Of a stretch of DNA of 64,000 bases, positions 940-22,287 are shown piece by piece; the first letter of the stretch is position 1; every line of letters starts with the position of its first letter. The stretch is from Quillaja saponaria. Lineage: Eukaryota > Streptophyta > Magnoliopsida > Fabales > Quillajaceae. Under the pieces are notes generated by a model. It worked only from the letters and a program-made list of their open reading frames with translations, searched no databases and had not been told where the DNA came from. The position numbers and the translations under genes are program-made. The stretch covers positions 22,876,350 through 22,940,349 of the forward strand of contig CM055608.1 in the NCBI GenBank assembly GCA_029379385.1, given 5' to 3'.

Positions 940-1570
940 GTGAGGGACATGACAGTTACCAACCATGGAAGGCAGTTTGATTGCCGACCTACTAAGTCCT
1001 GGTGCTCAGAACTGGGTATTGACTTACATTTTTCGTCGGTAGCCTACCCTCAGGCCAACGGCCAGGCAAAGGCTGTTAACAAGGTACTCCTGGAAGGACT
1101 AAAGAAAAAGGTAAATCGGAATAAATTAGACTGGGAAGAGCACTTGCAGTAGGTTTTATGGTCATACCGCACCACATGGAAGATCGCCACTGCAGAAACG
1201 CCTTTCAACCTGACCTACAAAATGGAAGCGGTTATACCAGGAGAGCAATGAGGCTGAAATAAGATCAAACCTCGATTTGCTTGAGGAGGCTAGGGAGAAA
1301 GCTCGCCTTCATCAGATTGTTCATCAACAGACCATAGCCCGACACTTTAACGATAAGTTGAAACTGAGACCTCTACAAGTGGGAGATCTTGTTCTAAGAC
1401 TGAACCAATTCAAGAATGGAAGCTCGGAAGGAAAACTCAGGGAATCGTGGGAAGGTCCGTACCAAATTTCTAACATTGTGAATCCGGGGGCCTACAAAAT
1501 CAGAACAGAATGGGGAAAAGTTCTCCCGAACAGCTTCAATGCGAGACATTTGAAAAAGCATTATCATTAA
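940..1570 (+). pseudogene. Retrotransposon integrase C-terminal remnant
   Basis: The first segment begins in the integrase core with NHGRQFDC (family: DNGxQFD) and continues with AYPQANGQAKAVNKVLLEGL, then a TAG stop at about 1150. Past the stop, [13 protein letters not shown] and EAVIP are still readable; these are the end of the core domain. A further frame at 1277-1570 has LLEEAREKAR, then the GDLVLR and WEGPYQI motifs and NARHLKKHY, which match the integrase C-terminal domain of Tat elements. The first catalytic Asp and everything upstream are missing, and in-frame stops and a frame change break the rest. It is a dead gene. Confidence 0.85.
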
Positions 1571-1710
1571 TGCAGGTCGTCTTGTTCTGCAAGTATTTTT
1601 GTCCTTCTTGTTCTGCTTGTAAAAATTAATGAAGATGGTTTTGTTTTGTTCATTTCAATGTTGGTGCAAGTCTAAATCTTTTTTCATGCGACAAGTATTA
1701 ACCCCAAGTT

Positions 1711-2356
1711 CAAGATCTCCAAAACCCGGGGGCAAAAACGGCCTAGGTTCTCCTGGTTGATCCAACGACCCTGACAGGAAACCTGACCTGCCAATGCTCG
1801 CGGTCATAGCACGCGAAGCTGCCAAGTTTCCATCCTGCAATCCGAGCCTCCGCCGAGTTCGTTCAAGATCTCCAAAACCCGGGGGCAAAAACAGTCGAGG
1901 TTCTCCTGGCCAATCCAACGACCCTAACAGGAAACCCAACCTCCCGATGCTCGCGGTCATGGCACGCGAGGTGGCTAGGTTTCCATCATGCGATCCGAGC
2001 CTCTGCCGAGTTCGTTTAAGATCTCCAAAACCCAGGGGCAAAAACGACCGAGGTTCTCCTGGTCAATCCAACAACCCTGACAAGAAACCCAACCTCTCGG
2101 TGCTCACCGTCATGGCACGCGAGGCCGCCATGTTTCAATCCTGCGATCCGAGCCTCCACCGAGTTCGTTCAAGATCTCCAAAATCAGGGGACAAAAACGG
2201 TCGAGGTTCTCCTGGTCGATCCAAAGACCCTGACAGGAAACCCAACCTCCCGGTGCTCGCGGTCATGGCACGCGAGGCAGCCAAGTTTCCATCATGCGGT
2301 CCAAGCCTCCGCCGAGTTCGTTCAAAATCTCCAAAACTCGGGGGCAAAAACGGTCG
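1711..2356. repeat. 153-bp tandem repeat, about 4.2 copies
   Basis: The motif CAAGATCTCCAAAAC recurs with small changes at 1711, 1864, 2017, 2170 and 2323, an exact spacing of 153 bp each time. Because 153 is a multiple of three, frames stay open on both strands (for example 1794-2372 on plus and 1655-2041 on minus). Their repeating composition shows these are by-products of the array and not genes. Tandem repeats in the 3' untranslated part are a known feature of Tat-lineage retrotransposons. Confidence 0.9.
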
Positions 2357-2563
2357 AGCCTTATTAAGGTAGATTGCCTGTTTGTTATAAGTTCATTATT
2401 CAGACTTCTAATTTGAAATTTACCAAACCATAATCATAAAATGGGTCAAATGCTCAAATAAAAACATATATAATAATAAATCATTTCAATTCAATATTCA
2501 TTACAAAAGTCAAATAAAAAAATTACAAAGTATCCTAGAACTGCCGATTGCCCGCATCAGGTT
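2357..2563. other. Short non-coding linker in the retrotransposon
   Basis: AT-rich sequence between the tandem array and the end of the antisense ORF. No motif is seen. Confidence 0.5.
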
Positions 2564-4809
2564 CTACGGCCTTGTCCTCCTCGCCCGCAACACTCTCGTC
2601 GCCCTCGCTCTCCTATCCCTCCTCCTGGTTAGCCTCAGCTTCGGCGAGCATCTTCGCCAGCCTCTCCTCCTCTTCGGCCTCTTCCTCGCCAGGCCACTTC
2701 GCCTCAGAAATGTCCAAAGAGTGGTTACCCGACAGCCGACCGACCTATTCGCGTATAGGCGACTGTCGTGATCATAGATAATTCTTCGACAGTCGTCAGA
2801 ATTTTTGAAATTTTCTACAGCTGTCCGGGCCTCCTCTTTGGATACCTCCAGTTCGGTCCTCAGCCTGGCGATCTCATCATCTTTCTCTTCCCTTAATCTG
2901 GCCTCCTCTGATTCAAATGCTCTGTACCGTTCAATTTCTTTTCTAAGGAGATCTGCGCCCTCGTTCAGCTCACGGCACTTCTTGAGCCACCCTTCCACCT
3001 CAGCCCCCAAACACAAGACTTCGGCTTGCAACGACTCAAAGTGTTCGGTAGCAGCTCGCCCTTCCGCCTCGACCTTCTCCGCTTGGATTAATCAAGCCGT
3101 TAAATTCTCATTTTCTTGAATAGTACCGAGCAGTTTGTCCGTTGAATATTCAGCGTCCTCCTGGGCTTTCTTCAACTTAGGATGCCTGATATTAGATGGA
3201 CTGCAATCAAACAACATCACATTAATAACGTTACGCAAACAGGGCACAAACATTACAAGTAATAAAGGTCGGCCATACCTGCACGCCAGCAAATAGCCTG
3301 GTAATGAATGCACTCTCTAGAGGAAGATCGTCTATCATAGCTACGTCCGTGGGCAAGGTACTCCCTCTTGCTATGGCATAGGCCACACCGGGGATGTCGC
3401 TGATGTAGGCATCCTCCGGGATAACCAGAAAAATGTGCGCAGGAACCTTGGCTAGAGAAAAGCCTTCTGGTCCAGTCTGCTCCTTCAAGGAGGGCTCCAC
3501 CCTTGCCTTCTTTAAGACGAGGTGGCATCCCTTGGCGGTCTTCTGTTGGGATCGTAGTCAAGGGCAGCACGCCCTCAGTTAACTCTATCTGGGACTCTTC
3601 CCGAGCCCGGGAAACGGAGGACACTTCGGCCATGTCCCGTTGGGAGGCTGAGCTTGCTCTTGACTGTTTGGGCGCTCTCCTACCCTCTTTAATCTGCCTT
3701 TTTCCTTTGTTAGAAGCTTTTTCAGCTCTCTCTTTTAAGGCCCCGAGACGCCTCCTAGTCGCTGCCCTGACTTTCGCGGCCTCCTGTTCTTGTGGCAAAC
3801 CCATGTCTGCAAAGCAAGAAATCAAAAGATCAATTAACAATAGATGACTAATCAATAATATCATTCAATAAAAACGTTGCGCAGTGCGAACCAAAATCCA
3901 GCTCCGATAAACCCGTCGTGTCTAAAAGCCCATCCCTTTGATACTTCTTGTACGTAACAATTTTACAATACTTCTTGTACTGTACTGGGCTCATCTTTTG
4001 AGGTTTCCTGGGCGTCCAGGTTCGTAAAATCTCTCATTTGTGCAACAAACCTGTGGGGTGAGGAGCCTCTACGAAGAAGTACTGGGGTTTCCACTCCTTG
4101 TTGTTATCGAGTTGTCCTCGGTACATGTCGAACTTGGCAGAAAAATACACCCCCCCCCCGACGTGTTCTTAATTTGATGAAGATGCCTGAACACCGTCAA
4201 GGACGGACGAATCTGCAAAGTGTGACAGACACCGATGAAGGTTATCAGAAATCCCCATCCGTTAAGAGCGATCTGAGCTATACAGATACCGAGGGCGTTC
4301 AACACTTTGACTATGAAAGGGTGGAAAGGATAGCGAACCCCGGCCTTCAGGTATTCCTCATAAAAGCATAAAGTGTTCGGAAGAGATTGATGCGGGCGAT
4401 CTCCATAAGGACTGACCTTGTAAATTTTGGCCCCAACTGGTTCAAAATACCGCCTACGCACCACCTCAAACTTTTGGTCACTCATGACGTTCTCTATGGT
4501 GTTTACAGCGGAAATGTTGGTTTGAGGCCAGAAGATCGCCACATCATCGTCAGATTCTTCATCCTCTTCCCATTTGGGTGAGAAACGAGCCATGGCAGTG
4601 GCCTCGTCTTCACCCTCAAAGCTCTCATACTCGGTGTTTTCTGAGCTGGAGGACGTGGTCGGATGGTAAGCTAGGGAAGGCGGGAGAACCTTTCCCTTCC
4701 CCAATCGATATTTAGGCTCCTCGCCTATCGGCATTATGGTGCCATCTGCCAAGCGGACATCCGACGTTTTGAAGGGAGGGGCTGATGGAGAATCTCCCTC
4801 ACTAGACAT
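2564..4809 (-). pseudogene. Antisense extra ORF of the Tat element (Transposase_28-like)
   Basis: Reading on the minus strand from an ATG at 4809, the first 246-codon frame has an acidic Ser-rich N-terminus and then AGVRYPFHPFIVKVLNALGI, resembling the conserved core of the 'putative gypsy type transposon' family (Pfam Transposase_28), which is known from antisense accessory ORFs of Tat retrotransposons. Downstream pieces in shifting frames (3864-3253, 3500-3231, 3313-3092, 3031-2564) encode Lys/Arg/Glu-rich helical sequence, including a coiled-coil-like stretch around 3030-2780 (LRTELEVSKEEARTAVENF). Frame changes and stops make it non-functional. The family's function is unknown. The domain name is from memory of the family. 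Confidence 0.7.
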
Positions 4810-5270
4810 TTTAAACTGAATAATGAAACGAAAACTTGAACAATGGAATGGATGAAAAGTTTCAAGTTTAGAAGCTCGTACCTAGCAAGGAAGGATGGCT
4901 TGCAAAAAGTTTTATCTCCCGAGTGGTCGAGCTGGTTGGACGCAAATTGGCAGAGCTTCGCTACAGAAATCTCAAAGTTGGGCACAAATGTGGGGTTTGT
5001 GGAGCCTTATATAGGCCCCGAAGATTAGCCTCGCACTCCGTGCCCACACACCACACCGCCATGTGCCATTGCCTTTATCTCATCCAATCACAATGCAAGC
5101 CCCGACCCGGCATTCGAAGAGTCATGATACGAACAAACAGTGTCAAAAAGTTGAAGACAGACCTGCTGGATCTACCTCGGGTTTCCATGTGGCTGCCGAT
5201 GACTTGGTAGCCTTTGTTTCTTGCTATCGTACACGCCAGGTAATGTTCAATCCTTTAGGGCGACCTTGAT

Positions 5271-5757
5271 GGTCGCCCTGTTGTGTTTTGATCGGGCCTC
5301 TTTTTCATGGGACTAGTGTTAATATAGTAATGTGACCTCCAATGAGAGCGTGCCACATGGTGTTTTCCTTACACCTGCTAACTTGAACAGTTCCGGTGGC
5401 CTGTGCTACAGCTCTCCTACTCTATATATACATGCCATGTTCCTCAAGAGAGGAATAAGAACAAAAAAGGTAAAAAGTCTCTTTCAAGTTACCATCCCCT
5501 TCTTACCATTTGCTAAGCTCTCCCCCTTTCTGACTTACTCATCGGAGGATCTTGGGAGTTCAACCCGGACTCGGCTCCCGTCCTCTATTTTGCAGGACAT
5601 AAGAACGCTAGGAAGCCAGGTCTCCAGATCGCCAGGTCGCCATTATCCCGTGCGACACTACAGCCACAGAAGGTCATCTAGAGTCTACCCCGAGATCGTT
5701 CATTCTCGTAACCAGTGCAGGTTCATTTCAACATTAACAACGTTTTATACATTTTAG
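5271..5757 (+). repeat. LTR-like segment with TATA box
   Basis: This segment has a TATA box (TCTATATATA at 5421-5430), a purine-rich tract just after it, and then a motif around 5530-5550 (TGACTTACTCATCGGAGGA) that resembles a sequence downstream of the transcription start in many Tat-lineage LTRs. It lies where the 3' LTR should be. Exact TG..CA ends and the second LTR are not visible, so the limits are approximate. Confidence 0.5.
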
Positions 5758-5759
5758 TT

Positions 5760-7140
5760 CCCTGTTAGGCTCGTTGAGATAGGGCCATTGCGAAAGATTT
5801 GTAGCCTTATCCTTGATTTCTGAAGAAAAATTGGGCCATGACAGAACTTGTTTCACCCACGACTCCTAGTAGGACCTCAAAGTCTCCTAAGTGAAGCTCT
5901 TATAAGCTGAAATAGCCTCCTCAAGGCCCTGTTTCATCTATTCACGCTCGTTGACGGAATAGAGATCACGAGTTGAGAACTGCGGGCACTTGTAGGGTGG
6001 TAGTGCCATGAGGTGAATCGTGAGATTAAAGAAGTTTACTGAATGGCCAGTGCTATGTAAGTAGAAAAGCATAAAGCTTTATATTGTGCGAGGTGATCAG
6101 GACGTTACTATACTATTACAACGCACACGTGGGGGGTTGACTAAGTTTTGCCTTTAGTGACATAAGGAGCATTGGAAGGGTAAGGACAGACCACATGTTT
6201 CCAGGGCTATTCAAAAAAGGTTGCACGCCATTCGCGGATATAGCAACTTAGTTGGTGGACACATCAACGCTAGCTTTTCAAGTCTACTCCATTCCATACC
6301 GGCAAGGAGCTGGATGCTTCTATTCATGATTATCTTAAAGGGTGCCTGATTGCAACTTCTTGCTCTTCTTTTGGCATGCACTTTCATTACACATTGAATC
6401 CTTCTACCATTTCGCTTTCTCCAAGACAGCAACTAGCCCCACATGTCCCTCAATCGAAGTAGACGTCGCAAGGCCCCTACCGCTGGTAGGCCAGTAAAAC
6501 AAACTTAAGATGACGGGCCTTGGTATTGCTGCCGATGATGTAGGCAACACATATTCGATCGATCTCTCTTGTCAAAAATATCTAGTGTGGCTTTGGAGAC
6601 CTTCGATGGAAGGGTGAGCCCAATAGCCTACCAAGTGTCGATAATTGTGGTTTGATCCTTACAAATAAATTTCACCTCGTGTAAATTCGCTACAAAGACA
6701 ATTTAGGATAATGACATAGCCTTGTATAATATTCAGAAGCGCATAGACCAGTTAATAATGCATGGGATATTCATAATGAGGATATAATATTGCACTAGAT
6801 AAATATAACTTTATGAGCCGAAGGCCAAAAATCTATCGACGATTACACAAAATATAAGTTAGAAGCATCATCATTATACATAACGTTATTCTTACTGAGA
6901 ACTTTCCAAAGACATAAAAACATGCACTTCCACTTCAATAAGAATAAGCATTGTGACTACAACCAAGGCGTTGCCTTGCAACAGCCTGCACGCATTTGCG
7001 GTACCTTTGGGAAATTGTCACCTATTGTCTCACTCGGGTGTCAGGCGATTCAGGAAATCATCGCGACTGCGATTGATGTCGTATTTGAGAAGATGATTCA
7101 TCATTGCTAAAGATGTTTCCTACAGCGCGAGAGCCACGAG
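5760..7140 (-). pseudogene. Decayed coding-like region, probably old T-DNA
   Basis: No intact gene is present, but the minus strand keeps stretches that read like protein between stops. One starts at an ATG near 6012 (MALPPYKCPQFSTRDLYSV) and reads through three stops to about 5760. A 73-codon frame occupies 6432-6211. A third possible N-terminus lies near 7160-7020 (MSSGLELVALAL then a stop). The base composition (more GC than the surroundings) and the position next to the T-DNA repeats suggest degraded T-DNA genes, perhaps opine-type or plast genes. I cannot assign a family, and the frames may belong to one or to several genes. The region is broken throughout. Confidence 0.35.
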
Positions 7141-7429
7141 CTCCAAACCGCTCGACATAATTGATTTTTGATTGTAAACATCTCTTATATTAAAATAATA
7201 ATATTCTTCCACTATTAAATGAGCATATTTTTTTGTTATTGTTATTGCCAAATAGATCAGATTTGAAAATTGATACACTTACTTCCTATTGTGCCGAGCA
7301 TTTTAGCAACAGTTATTAGCACTAGCTAGACGTTAACATCATGCACATAAGTGGTAGTAATTTATCTTCGAGCGTGCTGGGAAACGTACATGTCGAACAC
7401 TACCGTATTGTATTGTATTCCTGCGCTAT
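7141..7429. other. AT-rich non-coding stretch
   Basis: No gene or repeat recognised. It lies between decayed coding-like sequence and the third copy of the T-DNA intergenic segment. Confidence 0.4.
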
Positions 7430-7985
7430 GATTGGATCAATTTTAATATTATTACAGCTACGTCTTCAATATATATACCATTCATTATTTACATATATTA
7501 TACAATTGCAAATCCCGTGCAAAGATATATCTAATGTAACTTTCATGCTCCCATGCTCAAAATAACATTTATGTTGAGTGCGGAGGCAACAACCTGGTTC
7601 TCGGCTAAGAAAGGTAACCTTGATCGTACTTAGCTTTATTGGCATCTCTGCGATAAAGAGATTCGCGCCACTCAGGTCAATCAATCTCTATACGACCTAT
7701 GCTAGCTGTTTATTTTTAGAAATCGATACTTTTCCCGTGTGTGATCTGTCAACCTCTTTTGTATCTTTTTTAATTTAGTCATGTTCAAAGCACTTAGTAA
7801 AGTGAAGGCACCACACATATATCTTTGATTATTTTTCATGAGATGCTTGACCCGATATTATTTACTCCCTCTATAATAATTGCGGCATTACTGTATTGCT
7901 ATCATGTCCACTTATATGCTTGCGGATGTGGATTCTCCATGTCCAAACTGAAAATGACATGCCGCAATTAAGTTAGCTATTTGCG
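7430..7985 (+). repeat. Third, diverged copy of the T-DNA iaaM/plast intergenic segment
   Basis: The sequence from about 7440 parallels 9716-10235 of the left arm in the same orientation, with shared blocks such as AATATTATTnCAGCTACGTC, ATAACATTTATGTTGAGTGC and AATGACATGCC in the same order. By eye the first 150 bp are roughly 85-90% identical, clearly less than the match between the two main arms. It contains no gene in the arms and none here. It shows that at least three partial T-DNA copies, or one rearranged extra copy, were present. A short ORF at 7578-7778 is not conserved in the other copies. Confidence 0.8.
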
Positions 7986-8461
7986 GTTCATAATTTCAAT
8001 CAACAATTCGCCATCCCTAAAAGAGCTTATCGACTGAAAGGAATCTTTGAAAGGTTATTACAGGGTAAGCGGGGACGAAGGCCATTTTCTCGCATGGACA
8101 TGAGTGCTCTATCATCGAAAATTTGAATCACATGAGCAGTAATTGGAATAAAAGGACGGCCAAGCCGCTACAAAATTCACAATGGAATAATAGTGAAAAG
8201 ACAACAGGATATAGAATTTAAATTATAATATGTTTCCTTTGGAATACGTTTAATTATTTCCAGCACAGTTGATCCGTTGAATACATTTATTTTTTTGATG
8301 ATAAACGCGACGAACCATTTTAGCACCTTGCTACAACACAATACCAAGAATAAAAGAGAATTTGTTACCAATAAATTTAGTTTTAAAATTTTTGAACAAA
8401 AAAGGAGACATTAATTGGACACGTTTGAGATCTTTAACATGAAATCACAGACATTTACAAT
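7986..8461. other. Non-coding stretch between T-DNA copies
   Basis: No recognisable gene. The sequence is single-copy within the window and has no counterpart at the outer edge of the right arm, so it is either rearranged T-DNA or plant filler DNA. The short ORF on the minus strand at 8371-8177 has no recognisable features. Confidence 0.4.
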
Positions 8462-8541
8462 AGCAATTTTAAATATTAGACATAAGTTGCAATTCGCTGC
8501 CGCTGATTGAATGCTACCGGCTGACCAAGTAGATTGTTATT

Positions 8542-9086
8542 CTATCGACGATCGATAGGAAAGGGCTTGGTGCCATCTAGATAATAAAACAGCGCCCTTC
8601 CTACCAGTAGCAGGTCATAAAGTATGAACTTTTTTGCCCGCCGCCTCCAAAATTCATAAGCCATCATATTTCTGTCTTTATTAGTCGTTATGTGCTTAAC
8701 AAGCTTGCTAAATGAATCGCTGATAAGAATGGCCGCAAAAAACTTAATGGCGGATGTTTTCTCATAGCACCCAGGTGAAGCATAATTGTGAACCTGCCTA
8801 ACTTCCTCCAATAAGAATTTATAATTGTCAGGTTGAATATTGGTGGCAAGGGCAATTTTATCACTGGGGATAGCGGTACAACAGTGATAAAACAAATTCC
8901 TCATTTGCTTTATAGAAAAGTAAATATATGCGATAGTGCTTGAGCTTCTACAACAGAGTTAAGTCCTTTGAGCAGATCTAGTTTTTCTAGACATGGAGGA
9001 TGTAGACATGGTCAGCGGTAGAACTGCTCAGCTCTTTTTAATGCAATCAAAACACAGTCGAGATGCTCTTTCACCAGTTGCCCCAT
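8542..9086 (-). pseudogene. RolB/plast-family gene, left-arm copy (broken)
   Basis: This is the mirror copy of the gene at 13888-14451. Read on the minus strand from the ATG at 9086, it begins MGQLVKEH and stays alignable, but a TGG codon of the right-arm copy is TGA here and small indels follow, including the stretch before the conserved KQMRNLFYH segment. From 8904 to the stop at 8542 the frame is open and ends PIDRR, like PIDRP in the right copy. The last 120 codons are therefore readable but the gene as a whole is not. The plast family comprises T-DNA proteins such as RolB, RolC, 6b, C and ORF13, which alter plant growth. Confidence 0.8.
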
Positions 9087-10615
9087 TTCAACTGATATGG
9101 CATCAATTGAGTTTTGATAAACTCCAAGTATTCTAAGAGAATAAAACAGATTGCTTTTCTTAATATAACTATGTTGGTTTTGCGTATATCTATGAAATTA
9201 AATGCAGAACGTTCAGGATAGAAAGGGGTTGCCATAAATAACTGATGGTGAGAAAATTAGATATGATCTGCTTCTGGCCAACGCCAAGTTACTTATAAAG
9301 AATTGGCAAACATACTAGATGCATTTAATAATATAGAAATTGTCATATTTTAACGTATTTCATGACGTCAGAAGGGCAACTTTCAATTAATTAAAGGGGT
9401 CCACACTGAAATAATGACCCGTTAATAATTATTGACCTGCGTTTTTAGGAAGTGGGAGTCGAAAATGTGGGTGGCTATAAACCTGTAGCCTAGGCACCTT
9501 TTACATTAGGACACCGCTATTGACAATGCATCCGAGCTATTTTAAAGCGCTCTAACTTCCAACCTTCAGCTGACATTTGTATGTTGTGCATTAGCCTATC
9601 TCTGATGGTTGTCCTTTCAGTGATCGCCCTTGGCCATGGAACCAGTTTTGCCTTTCAAGGAAGCCAGGCCCCAAACCTTAGATGAATAATTAATATTAAT
9701 ATGGTTGGATCTTTTTAATATTATTGCAGCTACGTCTCCAATATATATACCATACATTGATTATATATTATACAATTACAAATCATGTGCAAAGATATAG
9801 GTGATGTAATGTTCATGCCCCCATGCTCACAATAACATTTATGTTGAGTGCAGAGGTAACAAACCGGTTCTTGGGTAACCTGTCTCTAGGCTGGAAAACA
9901 TAACTTTGATCGTACTTAGCTTTATTGATATCTTTGCGATAAAGAGATTCGCGCCCTCGGGTCAATCAATCTCTGTAAGAACTAAGCTGGCTGTTTGTTT
10001 TTGGGAATCGTTGTTTTTCCCATGTGTGATCTGTAAGCCTCCTTCGCATCTTTTTTAGTTTAATCTTTTCCAGAGCACTTCGTAAAGTGGAGGCACTACA
10101 CATATATCTTGGATTATTTTTTACGAGATGCTACACCCGAAATTATTTGTTCTCGCTGTCACATCCACTTTTATGTTTGCGGCGTGGATTCTGCGAGCCT
10201 AAATCGAAAATGACATGCCATAATTAAGTTAGGCAGATTGGAACTAATGCTATTACTGTCACCTAATATATATTTTTGGCATTGTTGGCGATTACGATAC
10301 CACCATATATTCTTAGGCTATTATTTTATTGTTATGCACCATGTGACAAATGGTCATGGTTTTACTCAATGTTTGTTGTGTCTTTGCCCCTTTTCATTTT
10401 TTCTTATGAATCTTAGGCTTTTGCGCAAGCCACTTCTCCATGTATAGCAATTTATGACTTCTAAGATAACGACCTGTACCAAACCATCTACACATTGGGT
10501 CCCATCAAACACTCTCCTGCAAGACATTTACTGCACTTTGAATCTTGTAGTTTATTTTTAAAAATGAATTGTTGTTTACACATTTCATGTGAGTTTCCTT
10601 TATTTGCTTGATATT
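9087..10615. promoter_or_regulatory. Divergent intergenic region, left arm
   Basis: About 1.5 kb without a gene separates the start of the plast gene (reading left) from the start of the iaaM-like gene (reading right). It must hold both promoters, placed back to back. It is repeated at 12450-13887 (inverted) and in part at 7430-7985. Plausible core elements are AT-rich ATATATA stretches (for example 9740-9750). I cannot fix transcription starts. The short ORF at 10238-10447 is not conserved in the other arm. Confidence 0.6.
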
Positions 10616-11494
10616 ATGGCTCTCCAACTATACCTTTGCCCTTGTTTCAATCCTCATGATCTCACCTCCCTCCGAAACCCAGAAGAGTTACTTCAAGGCC
10701 TCTTTTACGCTTTATATGATTATACTCAATTGCTCAGCCAAAAGCTGATACCATTCCAGAAAAAATGGGCTAAGGCAGTATTCAAGTCCAATACTCACAA
10801 TTTGAGCTCCCTAGCCCTTAAGAGTGTCGCAACAATAGCATCCTCCAAGATATGCTTCCATTCTCCGATACTCGGCCAATTAGACGTAGCTCTCAATTTT
10901 AATATGCCAGCGTTCATCTATACATCTTTCCAAAGCTTGCAGTGGCTTTTCCTCCATCGTTGTATCCCTGAACCAGTCATAGGGGCTATGCTCGCTACCA
11001 CCATGCTGCCTTATCGTGATGATCTCTCACTCCAAGAGATAAGTCGATTGCACAATCTTGCTTTACCAAGTAGACATGTGAACAAATCTGATATGGAATG
11101 GTTCGTTGTTATCTTGCCTAGCTCGTTGTTCTATGAGAGCTGCACACATAAGGCAATTACTCGAAATGGTGAAGAGCTACGTTGCCCTTTCCTTTACAAA
11201 CCGGCAACCGCTCCTATCCCATACAACATCGTGGCTATCGGGCAGACACTATTTTATGACGAGCCAACCACGATACCCGTTCCTGGAAATTTGTCATCTT
11301 GCCTTGATTTGCTCTATGATTATCAGGTTTTTTTGCAGGAGAGGGAGACCTATGGTAGCATCAGACATTATCCTGAAAACACTTTACTGCCCAAAGTAAC
11401 GATTATGGGGGCTAGCTTGGCTGGCCTTATAGCAGCGACCAAACTTTTGCGTGCTGGCGTTAAAGATATTACTCTTTTCGAGCCACGTGATTAG
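10616..11494 (+). pseudogene. iaaM-like: iaaM/ORF8-like tryptophan monooxygenase, N-terminal part (left arm)
   Basis: An open frame of 292 codons starts at the ATG at 10616. Residues 1-260 align with the plast protein encoded at 13888-14451 (for example LSLQEISRLHN against LSLEEVRRVHN, and GQTLFYDEPTTIPVPG against GRVLFYHQDGTKPLPID). This fits the known RolB-like N-terminal domain of agrobacterial IaaM/ORF8 proteins. Residues 259-292 are the start of the FAD-binding fold (PKVTIMGASLAGLIAATKLL, then TLFEPRD), the opening of tryptophan 2-monooxygenase, which makes indole-3-acetamide for auxin synthesis. The family is about 750 residues; here the rest is lost. Codon 293 is TAG where the right arm has CAG, 10 bp before the repeat junction. 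The dinucleotide motif reads GASLAG instead of GxGxxG, with Ser267 in the second glycine position. It cannot be an active enzyme. The family assignment is firm; whether it is iaaM or ORF8 is open. Confidence 0.82.
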
Positions 11495-11504
11495 ATCAAG
11501 GATG

Positions 11505-11574
11505 AGATAGGGTTTAATCCTGTATATCCATGCCGCTTTGCTGAGATGCACGCGATGCGATTTCCCACCAGCAC
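11505..11574. other. Spacer at the centre of the inverted repeat
   Basis: About 70 bp are found once, between the last matching base of the left arm (...GATCAAGG) and the first of the right arm (CGATCTGATCACGTGG). The minus-strand reading of the right-arm iaaM-like gene runs into this spacer and stops at 11514. It is either the next bit of iaaM kept by one arm only or filler made when two T-DNAs were joined. Confidence 0.7.
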
Positions 11575-12449
11575 TCGATCTGATCACGTGGCTCGAAAAG
11601 AGTAATATCTTTGGCTCCAGCACGCAGAAGTTCGGTTGCTGCTATAAGGCCAGCCCCCATAATCGCGACTTTGGGTAGTAAAGTGTTTTCAGGATAATGT
11701 TCGATGCTACTATAGGTCTCGCTCTCCTGCATAAAGACCTGATAATCATAGAGCAAATCAACGCAGGACGACAAATTTCCAGGAACGGGTACTGTGGTAG
11801 GCTCATCATAAAACAGTGTCTGCCCGATAGCCACGATGTCGTATGGGATAGAAGCGGTTGCCAGTCTGTAAAGGAAAGGGCAAGGTAGCTTTTCACCATT
11901 TCGAGTAATCGCCTTATGTGTGCAGCTCTCATAGAACAACGAGCTAGGCACGATAACGACGAACCATTCCATATCAGATTTGTTCACATGTCTGCTTGGT
12001 AAAGTAAGATTATGTAACCGGCTCATCTCTTGGAGCGAGAGATCATCACGGTAAGGCAGCATAGTGGTAGCGGGTACAACCCCCATGCCTGGTTCAAGGA
12101 TACAACGATGGAGAAAAAGCCACTGCAAGCTTTAGAAAGATGTATAGATGAACGCTGGCATATTAAAATCGAGAGCTACGTCTAATTGGCCAAGTATAGG
12201 AGAATGGAAGCATGCCTTGGAGGATGCTACCGTTGCGACACTCTTAAGGGCTAGGGAGCTCAAATTATAAGTATTGGACTTGAATACTGCCTTAGCCCAC
12301 ATTTTCTGGAATGGCATCAACTTTTAGCTGAGGAATTGAGTATAATCATAGAAAGCGTAAAAGAGGCCTTGAAGCAACTCTTCTGGGTTTCAGAGGGAGG
12401 TGAGATCGTGAGGATTGAAACAAGGGTGAAGGTACGGTTAGAGAGCCAT
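11514..12449 (-). pseudogene. iaaM-like: iaaM/ORF8-like gene, N-terminal part (right arm, broken)
   Basis: Mirror copy of 10616-11494, read from the ATG at 12449. It has four in-frame stops compared with the left arm: codon 4 (TAA, 12438-12440), codon 20 (TGA, 12390-12392), codon 42 (TAA, 12324-12326) and codon 106 (TAA, 12132-12134). Each is a C-to-T change of CAA or CGA in the coding strand. A 9-bp deletion removes three residues in the FAD motif (GAGLIAA instead of GxSLAGLIAA). After the point where the left arm stops, this copy has CAG and continues into the central spacer to 11514. The gene is dead, but it preserves the second glycine of the FAD motif that the left arm lost. Confidence 0.82.
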
Positions 12450-13887
12450 AATATCAAGCAAATAAAGGAAACTCACCTGAAATATGTAAACAACAATTCA
12501 TTTTTAAAAACAAACTATAAGATTCGAAGTGCAGTGAATCTCTTGAGGGAGAGTGTTTGATGGGACCCAATGTGCAGATGGTTTGGTACAGGTAATTATC
12601 TTAGAAGTCATAAATTTCTATACATGGAGAAGGGGCTTGCACAAAAGCCTAAGATTCATAAGAGAAAATGAAGAGGGGCAAAGACACAGCAAATATTGAG
12701 TAAAGCCATGACCATTTGTCATATGGTGCATAATAATAAAATAATAGCCGAAGAATATATGGTGGTATCGTGATCACCAACAATGCCAATAATAGATATT
12801 GGGTGACATAATAGCATCAGTTCCAATCTGCCTAACTTAATTAAGACATGTCATTTTCGGTTTAGACATGGAGAATCTAAGTCCGCAAACATAAAAGTGG
12901 ATGTGCAGCGAGAACAAATAATATCGGGTGTAGCATCTCATAAAAAAAAAATCCAAGATATATGTGTAGTGCCCCCACTTTATGAAGTCCTCTGGAGAGG
13001 ATTAAACTAAAAAAGATGCGAATGAGGCTTACAGATCACACACGAAAAAGCAGCGATTCTCAAAAACAGCCAGCCTAGTTCTTACAGAGATTGATTGACC
13101 CGAGTGGCACGAATCTCTTTATCGCAAAGATGTCAATAAAGCTAGAGACAGGTTACCTGAGAACCAGTTTGTTGCCTCTGCACTCAACATGAATGTTATT
13201 TTGAGCATGGGGGCATGAACATTACATCACATATATCTTTGCACATGATTTGCAATTGTATAATATATAATCAATGAATGATATATATATTGGAGATGTA
13301 GCTGCAATAATATTAAAAAGATCCAACAATATTAATATTAATTATTTATCTAAGGTTTGGGGCCTGGCTTCCTTGAAAGGTAAAACTAGTTCCATGGTCA
13401 AGGGCGATCGCTGAAAGGATAACCATCAGAGATAGGCTAATGCATAATATACATATGTCAGCTGGAGATTGGAAGTCAGAGCGCTTTAAAATAGCTTGGA
13501 TGCACCTTCAGTAGCGGTGTCCTAATGTAAAAGGTGCCTAGGGGTTTATAGCCTCCCACATTTTCGACTCCTACTTCCTAAAAACACGGGTTAACAATTA
13601 TTAACGGACCATTATTTCAGTGTTGACCCCTTTAATTCATTGAAAGTTACCCCTCTGACGTCACGAAATATGACAATTTCTATATTATTAAATGCATCTA
13701 GTATATTTGCTAATTCTTTATAAGTAACTTAGCATTGGCTCCATCAGCTATTTATGGTAACCCCTTTCTATCTTGAATGTCCTGCATTTAATACCATAGA
13801 TATACGCAAAACCAACAGCATAGTTATATTGAAAAAACAATCCACTTTGTTCTCTCAGAATACTTGGAGTTTATCAAAACTCAACTG
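12450..13887. promoter_or_regulatory. Divergent intergenic region, right arm
   Basis: About 1.4 kb without a gene, the inverted copy of 9087-10615. It separates the iaaM-like start (minus strand) from the plast gene start (plus strand) and should carry both promoters. The blocks around 13080-13400 (complement of 9716-10010) are well conserved. Because the plast gene on this side is the only open one, this copy is the one of functional interest. Confidence 0.6.
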
Positions 13888-14451
13888 ATGCCATATCAGT
13901 TGAAAATGGGGCAACTGGTGAAAGAGCATCCCGATTGTGTTTTGATTGCATTAAAAAGAGCTAAGCAATTCTGCCACTGGCCATGTCTACATCCTCCACG
14001 TCTAGAAAAACTAGATCTGCTCAAAGGACTTAACTTTGTTGTAGCAAGCTCAAGCACTATCGGACATATTTATGTTTCTGCAAAGCAAATGAGAAATTTG
14101 TTTTATCATTATTGTATCGCTACCCCCAGCGATAAAATTTCCCTCGCCACCAATATTCGACCTGACAATTGTAAACTCTCCTTGGAGGAAGTTAGGCGGG
14201 TTCACAATTGTGCTTCACCTGGGCATTACGAGAAAACATCCGCCGTCAAGTTTTTTACGGCCATTCTCATCAGCAATTCATTTAGCAAGCCTGTTAAGCA
14301 CACAACGACTAATAAAGACGGAAATATGACGGCTTATGAATTCTGGCAGTGGCGGGCAGAAAATTTCATACCCTATGACCTGCTACTGGTAGGAAGGGTG
14401 TTGTTCTATCATCAAGATGGCACTAAGCCTCTTCCTATTGATCGTCCATAG
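13888..14451 (+). CDS. RolB/plast-family T-DNA protein, open right-arm copy
   Basis: An open frame of 187 codons starts at the ATG at 13888 (MPYQLKMGQLV). The left arm has one A fewer just before the second ATG and is in frame only from MGQLV, so the ancestral start may be at 13906. Plast-like features: FCHWPCLHPPRLEKLDLLKG near the N-terminus, KQMRNLFYHYC in the middle, and a C-terminus of the form PYDLLLVGRVLFYHQDGTKP followed by LPIDRP, the region most typical of RolB-like proteins. The N-terminal domain of the neighbouring iaaM-like gene is visibly related. The length is close to that of short plast proteins (about 180-230). Plast proteins change plant cell growth and differentiation by poorly understood means. 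In the sweet potato T-DNA IbT-DNA1, iaaM lies near a C-protein gene, so a C-protein relative is a reasonable guess, but I cannot fix the subfamily. There are no introns, and it lies in the less decayed part of the T-DNA. Confidence 0.78.
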   Translation: MPYQLKMGQLVKEHPDCVLIALKRAKQFCHWPCLHPPRLEKLDLLKGLNFVVASSSTIGHIYVSAKQMRNLFYHYCIATPSDKISLATNIRPDNCKLSLEEVRRVHNCASPGHYEKTSAVKFFTAILISNSFSKPVKHTTTNKDGNMTAYEFWQWRAENFIPYDLLLVGRVLFYHQDGTKPLPIDRP

Positions 14452-14539
14452 AATAACAGTCTACTCGGTCAGCCGGTAGCATTCAATCAGCGGCAGCGAA
14501 TTACAACTTATGTCTAATATTTAAAATTGCTATTGTAGA

Positions 14540-15271
14540 TTGCTTCTGAGGCGACTCGCTGAAAAATTCAGCTGCGCAAGCAAGACTGGCAATCATTCGA
14601 TTTTTGTTGTGGTCGATTTCGGCAAAAACAGACCTTGCCACTCCAGGATAGAGGAAGCGAAGAGCTTTATCCGTGGCATTACTGGCCTCAGTAGTGTCGA
14701 AATGAGACGCTTGAACATCTCGTTTCCAAGAAAAAGGAAAAGTGTCACCAAGGAGCAAAATATGGCTGCAATGATGGCGAGGGTTGGCAACTTGGATAAT
14801 GAGACCGAGAAGCGCCTGACATTGAGTTTCGCAAAGACTTGGGAATTGTTGCTAGCAAATGAGTTTAGGCCACCTTACAAGAACTACCTGATAATCGACC
14901 AGCAAGTATTTACCACCAAGAAGGTAGAAGCTCCTATGCACTGGAGCGCTCGGGCGGTGAGGTTAGGTGAAAGCAGGACGAAGATCGAAGATCTGTGGTC
15001 TTCAGAACTCGCTCTCAACGACCGAGCCGACTAGGGGTTAGAACCAGATCCTGTCATTGGCTGTGCGAAAGCTAGCCCTGGCACAATTTTGATCAAGGAT
15101 GTGAATCTAGGGTTATCTGCAACGCGCATGCTAGGTAGCTATGTTATACCCGTTGAAGATGCTGAGGCTGCGATAAGGGCAATGAAAAACATAAGCCTCA
15201 TCTCGCGACAGTGGCCATCAAAGTATCTCACTGAAGATCCCAATCGCCTGTATTATGTTCTCTGGCTATAA
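14540..15271 (+). pseudogene. Unidentified T-DNA reading frame, truncated and broken
   Basis: The frame is open from the outer edge of the right arm (about 14538) to a TAG at 15034, then continues in the same frame to a TAA at 15271 with protein-like composition (for example LGSYVIPVEDAEAAIRAMKN). Another stretch reads SFAKTWELLLANEFRPPYKN. The first ATG after the edge is at 14702, then 14763, so the true N-terminus is probably lost at the repeat breakpoint. I do not recognise the family. Its place next to plast and opine-type genes suggests a T-DNA gene; agrocinopine synthase follows the C-protein gene in IbT-DNA1 and should be tested, but I see no motif that proves it. A minus-strand frame at 14758-14501 is an alternative but is shorter. 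Confidence 0.45.
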
Positions 15272-15969
15272 GCACAAGCCAAACCGCTCGGCACTTCCGT
15301 CACAAGAAAGATGGATCAAGCGATCAAGGTGTGGACAATTGGCTTGAGATACTAGCTTAGAGGACTATGAACGGTTCAACAACGGCTTGAGATACTAGCT
15401 TAGAGGGCCGGGGAACCTGGATGATTTGCGTGATTGCAAGTTCGTTAGGCCATTCGAGCTAGTACAGAAATCAAAAGAGGCACTAGTCTGAGCCTCAGAA
15501 ATTTGTGCCGGTCTAGAGGCCGGCTTGCAAGATTGCTGAAATAGCTTGCAAAGTTAGGCAGGAGAAGCTGCTGTTAAACCGAGTTTTCAGAAAGCTATAT
15601 CTTTAATTTGTGTGTTGCTTATTTGCTTTGAGTGGATACTGCTAAACCTACAGTAGTTGTATAGGTATATCAGTCTATTTTATTATAGGCTTCATTATTG
15701 TTTTATCGCGTGTTACCTTTGTATGTAGAAAATTTTGGATTTGCAACGTGAGTGAGAAATTATTCAAAATGAAGGATAAAAGTAATAACATAGAGAGATA
15801 ATACAACATTAACCAAATATAACTGACAATTACAAGTGATATTATTATCACTGCTAATAGAACATGACAGAGAAACAAGGTAGGTGACGTTAATGAGCCA
15901 ATTGAGTGACTTGCCAAGGTTTGACTGGGTAGGTTCCTCGTAAAAGAGGCCCGTCTTGGCGCTACATTC
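15272..15969. other. T-DNA non-coding stretch, 3' side of two convergent genes
   Basis: The plus-strand frame above and the minus-strand OCD-like gene converge here. A near-perfect short duplication is visible at 15341-15360 and 15381-15400 (GGCTTGAGATACTAGCTTAG). A possible poly(A) signal for the minus-strand gene (TTTATT on plus, AATAAA on minus) is at about 15678-15683. There is no gene. Confidence 0.5.
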
Positions 15970-16989
15970 TCAGTCGGTATTAGAGAGTTTCGCAGCAAGA
16001 GTTTCGTAGATATGGCCAGCCACCGCAATGTCGAGGCTGGCGAGACCGACGGGACTGAAATTTGCAGGCCTATCCCATGTCTCAAGTCTTTTCGTGAGGG
16101 TTCGATCGGCAAGGACTTCGGTGTAGTTTTTAACCCCATCACCCCTTCCATGTTACATCATCTTCAAACCACGCCTCGAGCATTAAAGCTCTAGGAAATC
16201 GATGTTACACGACTCCATCGCTACCATATCGTCAGCAACAATATGGCCACGTGCTGTCAAAAGCCGCTCGATGTAGTCGGTTGGCAAATCGTTGATACCA
16301 AGGGACAGAGTTACAGCATCGGGCACTATCTCATTCGTCTCAAACACGGGCTTGCTTGCATTCGTTGCCGTTATCACAAATTTGGCCTTGGGCAGAAGCT
16401 TCTGATCATCAACAGCATCGAGCCTGAATTGCACCTTCGATCGGAGCTTATCGACTAGATCTTGATTGGACTTTCTACCGCGGCTAAGCACTAAGATGCA
16501 TTTAATTCCGGTGGTGGCACCATCATTGAGGGAAAGGATGACAGCCTCAGCGTCTTTTCCCGTCTTGAACAAGAAGACATTGATGTCATGTTTGCCTTGC
16601 AAGAGAAGGTTTACGCATGCGAGCGCAAACCAACCAATTCTTCCATTTGAAATCGTTGCGCCTTCAAGTGACATGAGACATTCGCCGTTGACTTTATCCC
16701 GAAGAAAGATTTCAACATGTTGGAGCGGTTTTCCAATCTCGGAGTTGGTAGGCGCGAAATAAATATCTTTGACGCCGGAATATTTGCCGAAGAAACCAAT
16801 GAGTGCTCCCACTGTCCAACTGGGAGCGTCTTTGATAAATGGGACGTATTTGATGTGGCCGACGAGGTTGTTAGCAAAAGACTCCCAATAACCCGTGAGA
16901 GCCTCATTGACGAGCGTTGGAGGGATGGGCACTCCAAGTGTCACTAGATCAGTTTCAGACCAATGCATCTGTGACAATTGGCCAGTCAT
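15970..16989 (-). pseudogene. Ornithine cyclodeaminase / mu-crystallin family gene with two stops
   Basis: From the ATG at 16989, 268 codons are open. After a TAA at about 16183-16185 and a second TAA about 30 bases on, the same frame continues to a TGA at 15970-15972, giving about 339 codons, the usual family length. The dinucleotide-binding region reads SNGRIGWFALACVNLLL, a changed form of the family's GxGxQA motif. Then come FVITATNASKPVF and PDAVTLSLGINDLPTDYIE, and past the stops SPVGLASLDIAVAGHIYETL, which matches the family end (DSxGxAxxDxAxAxxVYE). Family members make proline from ornithine or reduce imines of amino acids, a chemistry close to opine metabolism. It sits in the T-DNA block, has no introns and has its own promoter. 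A shortened 268-residue product remains possible. Family call strong; substrate unknown. Confidence 0.82.
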
Positions 16990-17060
16990 CTTCGTGAATG
17001 ATGATCAATAGATTTACGACGCTTCTTTAAACAAGTTGTATGTGATTTGGAGGCAAGGAG

Positions 17061-17143
17061 GTGTATTTAATATCTTCATTTTCAAGTTTAGGTGTGGTAG
17101 CTAAGGTTCAGCCTGGCAGCCTAACTATTTTTGTCGCCATTGG
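17061..17143 (-). promoter_or_regulatory. Promoter of the OCD-like gene (TATA and CCAAT)
   Basis: On the minus strand, GATATTAAATACAC (complement of 17061-17074) is a TATA-like box about 75-80 bp before the ATG at 16989. CCAATGG (complement of 17137-17143) lies about 70 bp further upstream. This is the normal spacing for a plant-type promoter, as T-DNA opine genes have. It was identified by eye only. Confidence 0.5.
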
Positions 17144-17149
17144 CTCATC

Positions 17150-19025
17150 GTGATATACATGTACTCAAGGAGGGACGTTATCAACACGCGGGTGGCTAGT
17201 AGTGTGTCGGCAGGTTGAATCATATCTATTCGAATAATTTCAATCTCTCATTCCTATTAAGGGAATTTGTTGATTGTGGTTGAGCAGGCTGGAAATTGTG
17301 CCTTTTATTGGGCTCTTAATGACCCACGTCATGCTCCACTGTATTGCTGGTTAGGTCAAACTCCATAACTTTTGGGTCTCACATAGTGTTTGTCTTCTTT
17401 CGATTGCAAGTGTCAATCCACTGAAAAGTTGTCATCCTTGGATGTCTCCTCTCTTGTGAGTCACGCAAAGCATCACCACCATGGCACACTACTATGCCGG
17501 TGGGAGGAGCATCCGACGCATCAGTGGTAAGTGAGTATGTCACCCATCTGCTCATTGATGCAGCAAATGGTGTGTGCAAATTACAGCTCCTTTGCCTAAT
17601 TTTGCCTTTGTCATTGATATTCTTTTTGTTAAATAATACATTATATTGAGTTGATATTTTTTTGTTAAGTAATATGTTTTATTGAATATTAACCAAGTAC
17701 AGAGAGGATATAATAGATATCTTATTTAACATAAAGGAAATTTGAGAAAATGTTTTAGAAAAAAAATGGAATACTGTTCAAAACACCTGAATGACATTGC
17801 ACATAGAAATATAGACTACAGGAAAATTGCTTCCAGGTCTAATAAAGAGGCTCCACTCATTCAAGTGACGTCTGTTCTCCCCAAAATGGTCCATATAATA
17901 AGTAGAATACCTATAAATCTATTTTGTTCCATTTATTTATGTAATGTGATGGTTCTAATAACAATATATTACTTAAATGCCAAAAATGTGATGACAATAA
18001 ACCTAGTTCAAACACAGTTTTAGTCTGACTTCCCTCACAACCCTCACCTGTGATCTCTCCCAACCCCCATGGCTACTAGACCAATTATGTAGTGTGGGCC
18101 TTGCATCAGCTATATAGTGAGGACCGGTTTTGTATGCTTCTAATACTAGAAAGGAAGAATATAATACAAGTATGAGATAATATGAATGAGCATTTTTCTT
18201 CTGGAATCTGTTCAGATTTGCATTACATTGGATTTTCTGAATTTCTTATTAAAATTAAAAAAAATATCTGTTTTCGCATATCTTTGCATTTAATACTCAA
18301 CTACTCATCCTACTTGTACGTATGTATGAAAAACTCCCTTTGTGAAATATGAAATAAATATATTTGTTTTCAATTCAAAACATAGATAATTTGCATGTGA
18401 AGCGAATTCTGTATGACTCACGCATTTAGTAACTTATTTTTTTTAATTTCTTTTCAAATCAAATGTGTAGTTGCTTTGTATGACTATTGATTCTGATATT
18501 ATCAGAAATACTCAATGCTGTTATTTATTTTATTATGTGATGGGAATTAATCAGTTGGTGTTTCTAGGATGTTTTAATTGCCAACCAAGTGCTCGTCGGG
18601 CATCATTCAAGATACCCATAAAGTATATGTTTATTAACATACTTAATGGGGAATTCTACCTGCACGGACACTTATGCAGGAAAAATGGGTCCCAGCCTCT
18701 TATCCAAGTGGGGTTCCGTGCTCGGTGCATGTTTCACCCTCCCATTTAGAATCACAAACGTATTAAAATCCTTGTTATTTGTCCTGTGCATTTTGAGAGA
18801 AGCAACAAAGTGTTCATTTACATATTTTGAAATGTATAAACAATATTGATAGGTTGAGTGATGATGATTTTCTAGTTTGAATTATAAAAGCTCTGAACTG
18901 GATTTAGAATTTTGATGCATCCTGCTTTTCAAGAAATGGAACTTTTGAGCTGACGAGAAACACAATTTCTTTTGGTGAAATTTTCTGTTCTTTATTTATT
19001 GATTGATATGTAACTTCTTGTACAG
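17150..19025. other. Junction region between T-DNA block and plant DNA, no gene
   Basis: Somewhere between about 17150 and 17600 the composition shifts from T-DNA-like to AT-rich plant intergenic or intronic sequence. I could not find a 25-bp T-DNA border. Short ORFs here (17742-18023, 18471-18749, 19155 onwards) have no recognisable features until the RRP6L2 exon. The part before 19026 ends in a good splice acceptor (TTGTACAG), so its right end is probably an intron of the RRP6L2 gene. Confidence 0.5.
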
Positions 19026-20521
19026 GCATCTCAAGAAATACTGGTTAATGATGGCATTGAATCCTCAGTATCTGACTCGCCGAATATAATAGCTGCAAAT
19101 GCCAGTAGGGAAAATATTGGTGTTCGCAGTATAACCAATAGTGATGTCTCAAGAATGGCACGTGCTTCTCATGAGCTTAAAGAGGAGTCTTTAGAGATTG
19201 GATGCGGTGCTTCTTACGTTTTTGAGCGCTGTGATAAAAATGAGAAAATAAAGAATGAATCCAACAACTACAATACAGAATTTCCCAAGGAGAATCTTAC
19301 TGTTTCTGTGCAGAGCAGAGATGCAAATATTGGTTCGGGCACTATTGCAGAGGCTGTAAGTTATTTTTTCTTTTCTTTTTGGAATTTACAATTTTTGGCT
19401 TCTTACACAAAGGAATATCAGCCTAATTATTGCCAATTTGTTGATAGGATACTGGAGTAACTGTTCAGGTGCGAAAGAAGCCTACTGGTGCTTTTGGGGC
19501 ACTGCTAGGTAATTCATCTGGAAAGAGGAAGCTTGGTATTGATAAAAAAGTGAGTATCCTACTCCATATAAATGTCTTTTGTGTTCCTTCCACTTGGTGT
19601 ATGCCCTTTTGACCATGTTCTCTTCTGTTAGCTTGTTTGTTCTTTTTCGTTCATTTTTCCAACTTCGCTGGTCCTTTCAATGATAAACTGGTTTTGGTTA
19701 GATTCAACCTAGCATTCATTTTATTTGGTGTTTGACTGATGAGACAAGTAGCTCCTGATAAATTATTAGGGACTCGTACTGGCTACCTCTTTTCTCCCTG
19801 GTTCCCATTTGGTTTTTCCTCTTTTTGGCAGATTTTTCTATATCTAATAATTTGGTTGTTTCTTCTGGGAATTCTCTTTCCATGAAACTGGACACTAGGA
19901 CAAGGAAGAGACCAAGGTGGGCAGATTAGATCTTCAGTTAGCTTTCCCTTCCAATCTTTTCTGGGGAGCAGTGAAAAGTTGAAACCGGTTGTAGAAACTC
20001 CTAATAGAGCAACCTTGGAGGAGAAGTCGAATCTTCTGGTACCTTTTACAGAGGAAGCTGCAACCTCCACTGCAGATGATATTATAATGTTAGAAGATAA
20101 TTCAGATGTGGAATTGTCACATGGTAACTCGGGCAGTGCAGATGAGAATAGGGAGTATAATTCTGCAATTTCTAGTTCGGAAACAAAGAAGGAAGAGGAG
20201 CCAATGTCTCCTTCAGACTTGTCCTCAAACTTCCAAAAATGCTTTCAGTCAGTTAACCAAAATAGGAGAGCCAGACACATCAAAAAAGCTGAAGAATCTG
20301 GTGGCTTGCAGCTGAAGCCATTTGATTATGAAGCAGCAAGGAAGCAAGTTAGGTTTGGAGAAGAAGCAGAGGATGTTAGGCATCCACTCAATTCTGGAAT
20401 TAAGAAAAAAAGTTCAGACATAGCACAGGGTCAATCAAATGATTTGAGGAACGATTTATTGCAAGGTAAAAGACGTCAAGCTTTTCCGGCTACTGGGAAT
20501 CGTAGTGCAACTTTTTGCTGA
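19026..20521 (+). pseudogene. RRP6L2: RRP6-like 2 exosome exonuclease, 3' exons only, frameshifted
   Basis: Three exons can be read. The first, 19026-19355 (approximate), opens after an acceptor with ASQEILVNDGIESS and ends before GTAAGT. The second, 19448-19549, gives VRKKPTGAFGALLGNSSGKR. The third, 19899-20521, starts DKEETKV and continues QIRSSVSFPFQSFLG, then KPFDYEAARKQVRFGE and, near the stop, GKRRQAFPATGNRSATF. These match my memory of the C-terminal region of plant RRP6-like 2, the nuclear exosome 3'-5' exonuclease. The catalytic DEDD and HRDC domains are upstream and not in the window. In the third exon one base is missing near 19920: the expected GTGGAGCAG (V-E-Q) reads GTGGGCAG, so the frame shifts and soon meets a stop. 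The copy is thus 5'-truncated or displaced, and frameshifted, unless the base is a sequencing error. Confidence 0.72.
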
Positions 20522-22150: not shown

Positions 22151-22287
22151 GAAAAATACATGCTGAAATCGAGTCAAGATTCACTTATAATAAAATTAAG
22201 AAAATTGAGCAAATTATAAATTATAAGATTTAAATGTAATAGATGTGCCATTTACATAAGTTTTTTGTTATTATTATTATTTTTTTA

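Follow-up and report, generated by a model that had tools for sequence, protein, structure and literature searches.

How did genes otherwise confined to Agrobacterium transferred DNA (T-DNA) come to lie, as a large inverted repeat, in a chromosome of Quillaja saponaria? The stretch that raises this question (the window hereafter) covers 64,000 nucleotides, C4:22876350-22940349, of a 34-Mb contig (C4) in a genome set of 351.8 Mb and 213 contigs; negative coordinates are positions to the left of the window, and C2 is a second contig of the same set. An initial annotation of the window had proposed a natural Agrobacterium T-DNA in a plant chromosome, and we consider it almost certain that the C4 insert is such a cellular T-DNA (cT-DNA): it carries genes of T-DNA-type families (by Pfam and plasmid comparison) and imperfect inverted repeats as in extended cT-DNAs, its genes are broken, and exons stand on both sides of it within the contig.

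Four out of 10 stop-free pieces of the window match the RolB_RolC family (PF02027) above the Pfam cut-off, with E-values between 1e-10 and 1e-26: 8542-8955 and 11517-12131 on the minus strand, and 10568-11491 and 13792-14448 on the plus strand, the last bearing out the RolB/plast gene of the initial annotation (plast2, right copy, in Table 1). A PF02027 profile search of the whole Quillaja genome gave 13 matches, all above the cut-off and confined to two places (six on C4 and seven on C2), and no match was found in any of 14 control genomes; the search covers plast-bearing loci at its sensitivity, and loci with only the opine synthase gene susL (see below) may exist elsewhere. For each of the ORF8, plast and susL regions, 1000 resampled sequences were drawn, and none had an open frame as long as the observed one.

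The product of 10616-11491 matched 162 plasmid records, 11 of them over 80% or more of the query. Among the best 30 of the 162, the eight best records matched through ORF8-type genes, with 38-40% identity over 95-98% of the length (E-values from 1e-47 to 1e-52) and with the alignment taking in the start of the flavin adenine dinucleotide (FAD) domain. Identity is 39.7% for pRiA4, 38.6% for pRi1724 and 38.2% for pTi C16/80, but 27.5% for the iaaM-type gene of pTiBo542, so the start of an iaaM/ORF8 gene with a FAD motif, as first described, does contain the beginning of the FAD domain but is nearer to ORF8 than to iaaM. The similarity to plast and iaaM-type proteins that the initial annotation had named as the check was thus found for both products concerned, the best plasmid matches of right plast2 (13888-14451) being the RolB-like parts of ORF8-type genes (31-34%, nine records). 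The plasmid records call these genes FAD-dependent oxidoreductase or RolB family protein, and the names ORF8, iaaM, ORF13 and ORF14 are those we take them to bear. What C4 keeps of ORF8 is limited to the RolB-like part and the first residues of the FAD domain; in its right copy, two pieces (11517-12131 and 12135-12323) have matches to ORF8 or to other plast genes. No Pfam match above the cut-off was obtained for the left plast2 piece 9012-9194. A further plast gene, split in two, is presumably ORF13 judging from gene order; its C-terminal piece is 47% identical over 36 residues to the pRi1724 gene at 22254-22850.

The gene at the outer end of the arms had been assigned to the ornithine cyclodeaminase family. 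The family match is real, but the piece 16186-17004 (minus strand) shares 45-62% identity with T-DNA proteins over 98-99% of its length, against 33% with annotated ornithine cyclodeaminases (best 30 of 109 records); the highest value, 62% over 99% (E = 9e-106), belongs to a pRiA4 gene, and the pTiBo542 gene reaches 45.6%. On this comparison the gene is a predicted susL-type opine synthase (L,L-succinamopine synthase). A protein search against nr returned nine proteins including the window's own, e.g. 'Sus [Ipomoea batatas]' (52%) and a Parasponia andersonii protein (42%). The plasmid genes, annotated as hypothetical proteins, are those that we take to be susL; the tea homologue goes by that name in a published account (PMC9763466). 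Two susL-like paralogues lie side by side on pRiA4 (22624-23658 and 24456-25505, minus strand), both annotated as hypothetical protein, and the closest relative found is a full-length protein on a 1,542-bp assembly contig, 69% identical to Quillaja susL. A tree of susL proteins is largely without resolution. None of the susL copies examined has an intact frame (the left C4 copy and the C2 copies are in several pieces), and the predicted frames suggest that at most the ORF8 RolB-like part and one plast protein could still be made today.

The whole structure is a palindrome with its centre near 11537 that extends from about -11610 to about 17530. The inverted repeat first noticed was recovered as its inner arms, with 2959 aligned sites, and comparison of the 30 kb to the left with the window extends it: 14542-15142 is an inverted copy of -9166..-8564, and 15347-17529 of -11605..-9451. 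The T-DNA therefore exceeds the bounds 5760..17200 given at first, since within the window it starts at 5740, after a retroelement, and ends near 17530, and on the left it goes about 11.6 kb beyond the window. Each arm runs from ORF8, cut at the repeat centre, through plast genes and a gene that we call X to susL at the outer end. By subtraction, the left arm measures about 10 kb without the retroelement and the right arm about 6 kb, with 4,080 bp of T-DNA kept in the left arm and missing from the right at a break at 14540/14542. Two outer ends on C4 and three on C2 share one stopping point, ...CATCAGTGG, which on C4 is some 0.5 kb upstream of susL; a fourth site on C2, whose alignment ran in the wrong orientation, gave no information.

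The initial annotation had also read retrotransposon sequence as the plant flank on the left. We rejected this reading, because T-DNA is present on the far side of the element: a Ty3/gypsy retrotransposon has landed in the T-DNA and split the ORF13-like gene. It begins TGTTAA and ends TTAACA (TG...CA), has ACGTT on both sides, and its two long terminal repeats (LTRs) differ by 5.7% over 423 sites. To the left of the window, Pfam scores its gag and RNase-H-like domains above the cut-off and its reverse transcriptase below, and within 4072-4881 (minus strand) finds Transposase_28, 'putative gypsy type transposon'. A 153-bp tandem repeat of 4.3 copies also lies inside the element (window 1708-2358).

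Table 1. Features of the C4 insert and its right-hand flank (window coordinates; negative values lie left of the window)
Feature	Position	Strand	Remarks
Ty3/gypsy LTR retrotransposon	-7196..5739 (in window 1..5739)	+	12,936 bp; 5' LTR -7196..-6773, 3' LTR 5317-5739
Target-site duplication ACGTT (5 bp), right copy	5740..5744	.	T-DNA resumes here
ORF13-like plast gene, C-terminal piece	-7543..-7214		PF02027 positions 82-187; beyond the retroelement
ORF13-like plast gene, N-terminal piece	5764..5988	-	PF02027 positions 3-65
Extra copy of ORF8 upstream region (9700-10232)	7427..7976	+	16% different
Left inner arm of inverted repeat	8453..11500	+	8.75% different from right inner arm, 2959 sites
plast2, left copy	8542..9197	-	Pieces in different frames; PF02027 1.2e-10 on 8542-8955
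ORF8 5' part, left copy	10616..11494	+	RolB-like part and first FAD-domain residues; open for 292 codons; PF02027 1.2e-26; ends at repeat centre
Centre of palindrome	11501..11573	.	73 nucleotides between the arms
ORF8 5' part, right copy	11514..12440	-	PF02027 match with 3 internal stops
Right inner arm of inverted repeat	11574..14540	-	Partner of left inner arm 8453-11500
plast2, right copy	13888..14451	+	Open frame; PF02027 2.5e-16
Gene X	14525..15271	+	169 open codons, then a stop and 78 further codons in frame; broken copy in left arm
Right-arm deletion point	14540..14542	.	4,080 bp of T-DNA of the left arm absent here
Outer part of right arm	14542..17529	-	Partner of -11605..-8564
susL-type opine synthase, right copy	15973..17004	-	Frame broken between 16152 and 16186
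Outer (opine-synthase side) T-DNA end	17526..17590	.	Both C4 arms and three C2 copies end at ...CATCAGTGG
Exons downstream of insert	19026..20518	+	GT at -12281 and AG at 19025 bracket the insert

Plant DNA borders the insert on both sides, as seen from the 34-Mb contig, a PMC2NT exon on the left and splice sites on either side. The PMC2NT exon (PF08066, E = 6.8e-08) lies at -18.1 kb, upstream of the insert, and this domain is typical of RRP6/EXOSC10 proteins. The last exon before the insert ends ...ACT/GTAAGT at -12281 and the first one after it begins ACAG/GCATCT at 19026, in the same phase; the insert would thus appear to occupy an RRP6-type intron that now measures 31.3 kb. The exosome-gene flank of the initial annotation stands on the left, with exons and splice sites on both sides, and the right-hand exons probably belong to the same gene, a reading that agrees with that annotation. 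A quick look left of the insert with a short list of motifs recognised no catalytic exons of the RRP6-type gene besides the PMC2NT exon; this gene copy may have suffered damage, or the motif search may have been too coarse.

A second locus, on C2, occupies about 16.8-44.3 kb into the 60 kb starting at C2:12760001 and contains, in pieces, plast genes, three or more susL copies and a pair of ORF8 copies, one of them with the amine-oxidase part. The amine-oxidase part of ORF8, also in pieces, was scored above the Pfam cut-off in one of the two pieces scanned. When 55 kb and 60 kb of the two loci were compared, matches were found within the T-DNA only; DNA differences amount to 22.6% for susL and 30.6% for ORF8, and nothing in the compared 60 kb of C2 matches the plast2 or X DNA of C4. 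Towards the susL end both loci have the order ORF8(-), ORF13-like(+), susL(-), end, to which C4 adds plast2(+) and X(+). In pRiA4, pTi C16/80 and pRi1724, compared with C4 and C2, ORF8 is reversed relative to the plast genes and the opine synthase (the gene in that place on pRi1724, presumably the opine synthase, is not susL-like), and pTiBo542 has iaaM and a different gene order. The order common to C4 and C2 is therefore evidence for a T-DNA type unseen in the four plasmids compared. The new type suggested at first is partly borne out in this way, by an ORF8 orientation shared by both loci and absent from the three ORF8-bearing plasmids and by gene X, for which no relative was found.

Divergence was counted as raw pairwise differences and converted to years by the Kimura two-parameter distance at 6.5e-9 per site per year, a rate used in the field (PMC12568777). 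The outer arms of C4 differ by 13.1% (15347-17529, 2150 sites) and 13.8% (14542-15142, 601 sites), leaving out the short stretch 15170-15340 (81.5% identity), and five pairs of C2 repeats, partly overlapping and thus not independent, differ by 12.3-13.8%. The corresponding ages are 11-12 million years (My) for the C4 outer arms, 10.5-12 My for the C2 repeats, 7.3 My for the C4 inner arms and 4.6 My for the LTRs; with 5.7% between the LTRs against 13.1-13.8% between the outer arms, the order in time is coherent and the retroelement is younger than the T-DNA. Trees often evolve more slowly, and a slower rate would make the insert older, so the years are uncertain. A 2025 review gives dates of natural transformation from 0.04 to 7.5 My, the upper value being for Camellia, with repeats up to 10% different (PMC12568777). 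By its divergence the Quillaja insert would be unusually old, beyond the 7.5 My that is the oldest date we met in that review (PMC12568777).

Most of the insert seems to have decayed freely. Synonymous shares of the differences between arms are as expected without selection for susL (40 out of 110) and plast2 (19 out of 60). Between C4 susL and its pRiA4 counterpart differences by codon position are 73/52/163, a strong third-position excess that points to selection during the bacterial past of the gene, before the transfer. In the RolB-like part of ORF8, 33 of 71 differences are synonymous against 32-34% expected (one-sided p = 0.007-0.018, depending on the mutation model; codon positions 24/13/38); when the changes are polarised, synonymous and other changes number 12 each in the open left copy, against nine and 16 (plus one stop) in the right copy, no clear difference. 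As this is one of three genes tested, the excess is weak and suggestive only, and we do not rely on it. It is noteworthy because the RolB-like part of ORF8 has been reported to be functional when separated from the iaaM part (PMC5606197), and the repeat joint made nearly that cut.

These observations suggest the following history. A Rhizobium rhizogenes-like Agrobacterium would have delivered T-DNA into one cell in the ancestry of Quillaja saponaria, and the insert would have been inherited through a plant regenerated from that cell. On C4, in the apparent intron of the RRP6-type gene, two copies of one T-DNA may have been joined head on, with the opine-synthase ends outward and ORF8 cut at the joint; a related T-DNA may have entered C2 at about the same time, and both may come from one infection. 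Afterwards most genes would have decayed, the right arm would have lost about 4.1 kb, and the Ty3/gypsy element would have entered the left arm. While active, the insert may have directed synthesis of an opine (probably L,L-succinamopine-like) and of hairy-root-type growth proteins.

Whether C4 and C2 go back to one infection is a close matter, and two infections of different age or strain, with separate insertions, are only a little less than an even prospect: the two T-DNAs are clearly different (in susL and ORF8, and in plast2 and X of C4, as above). Against separate infections, the C4 outer arms and the C2 repeats are equally diverged (365 of 2751 versus 867 of 6764 sites, 13.3% versus 12.8%, p = 0.57), which makes one co-transformation a fair reading; both loci also share the order of ORF8, ORF13-like gene and susL and one outer end, and the two susL-like paralogues on pRiA4 mean that one strain is able to supply two versions. 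The fullest form of the single-infection account, in which one infection more than 10 My ago gave the Quillaja lineage two different T-DNAs, older than any natural transformation that we have met dated by its own repeats, and in which the ORF8 RolB-like product truncated at the joint was under purifying selection part of the time, is unlikely as a whole, and we offer it as a speculation.

Several points tell against an old insert of single origin that has since decayed in an RRP6-type intron. Divergence is lower between the inner arms than between the outer ones (8.75% versus 13.1%, Fisher p = 8e-7), so that a single origin needs gene conversion, which we propose to have acted across the close palindrome; if the inner arms are the truer clock, the age is 7.3 My and no record. 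The gap would also arise if the inner palindrome were younger than the outer arms (8.75% versus 13.1-13.8%) through a second rearrangement, but that is improbable to our minds, as 300-bp bins of the inner arms (5.6-10.7% different) show no clear step and the two outer ends terminate in the same sequence. Differences between the susL arms are mildly uneven over codon positions (47/26/40, p = 0.048), not quite pure neutrality. The T-DNA/plant junction, where little of the 25-bp border repeat would be expected to survive, is blurred over about 60 bp, gene X is without a known T-DNA relative, and the one match that joins the flanks into a single gene is the PMC2NT exon on the left, five out of six flank pieces having no Pfam match above the cut-off. 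Contamination or an assembly artefact has a negligible chance: large palindromes are hard to assemble, but the 34-Mb contig, the stop-ridden genes, the 13% arm divergence, the nested plant retroelement with its target duplication, and the PMC2NT exon and splice sites all speak against it.

Gene X is likely but not certain to be a real gene, because an open stretch as long as the one observed was reached in 37 of 2000 resamplings of its region. Pfam and NCBIfam gave only matches below the cut-off, tblastn of four separate pieces against plasmids gave no convincing match, a GTDB scan gave 39 pattern matches of which none was confirmed, and PDB sequences gave two matches (best E = 0.05). Its predicted fold has a mean pLDDT (predicted local distance difference test) of 50.8, too poor for structure searching. 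Short hits with E >1 prompted a profile of a T-DNA hypothetical protein (from pRiA4, pTi C16/80 and pRi1724), which found nothing for gene X. A guess that X ends like an octopine-dehydrogenase protein was unsupported by the Pfam and NCBIfam scans and the plasmid tblastn.

Other repeats are present further to the right in the window: a transposase fragment that we take to be of the CACTA type (25312-25746, minus strand; Transposase_21, PF02992, E = 1.5e-49), a large direct-repeat array (29214-34080, units 82-86% alike, several kb in all, with related pieces near 22292-22649) and a minisatellite of 14/21-bp GA-rich units (54806-54964).

cT-DNAs are a known kind of insert, and it is the structure and age of this one that we have not found in print. 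A literature search for T-DNA in Quillaja found no paper, though one combining both terms could be missed; Quillaja is said to be among the natural transformants listed by Matveeva and Otten in 2019, the same genus reportedly having T-DNA genes. If dated correctly, the insert would be a measure of the time over which T-DNA can still be recognised in a plant, with the nested retroelement as a second, independent clock within the same insert. The vaccine adjuvant QS-21 is obtained from Quillaja, so the status of this tree as a natural transformant is also of practical interest for regulation and breeding.

Among known systems, the Camellia insert CaTA resembles that of Quillaja in having susL, a plast-family gene (rolB), an imperfect inverted repeat (90% identical) and inactive genes (PMC9763466). 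CaTA is described as 5.3 kb long, with the order acs-susL-rolB and a 1-kb repeat at its ends (PMC9763466), whereas Quillaja has ORF8, the ORF13-like gene and X, arms of about 10 and 6 kb and an outer divergence of 13%; acs-type genes were the best match of no C4 or C2 piece compared with plasmids. Of the plasmids, pRiA4 and pTi C16/80 share with Quillaja plast genes followed by a convergent susL gene, and these two and pRi1724 have ORF8, the best susL and ORF8 matches being among these T-DNA regions; Quillaja differs from them by the opposite orientation of ORF8, by the extra X and by a DNA identity of only about 65-70%. Plasmid matching picked out no separate rolC- or ORF14-like gene on C4, and one short ORF8 piece best matched rolB. 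The TA insert of N. tomentosiformis and the Linaria cT-DNAs have orf8 and orf13 as Quillaja does, and N. glauca and N. tomentosiformis have inverted repeats, but the Nicotiana and Linaria cT-DNAs listed there carry, unlike Quillaja, mikimopine synthase (mis) (PMC5606197); for N. tomentosiformis the oldest insert has been dated to 1 My (PMC12568777). Sus of Ipomoea batatas and susL of Parasponia andersonii (52% and 42% identical) are susL homologues likewise resident in plants, in other hosts and other inserts.

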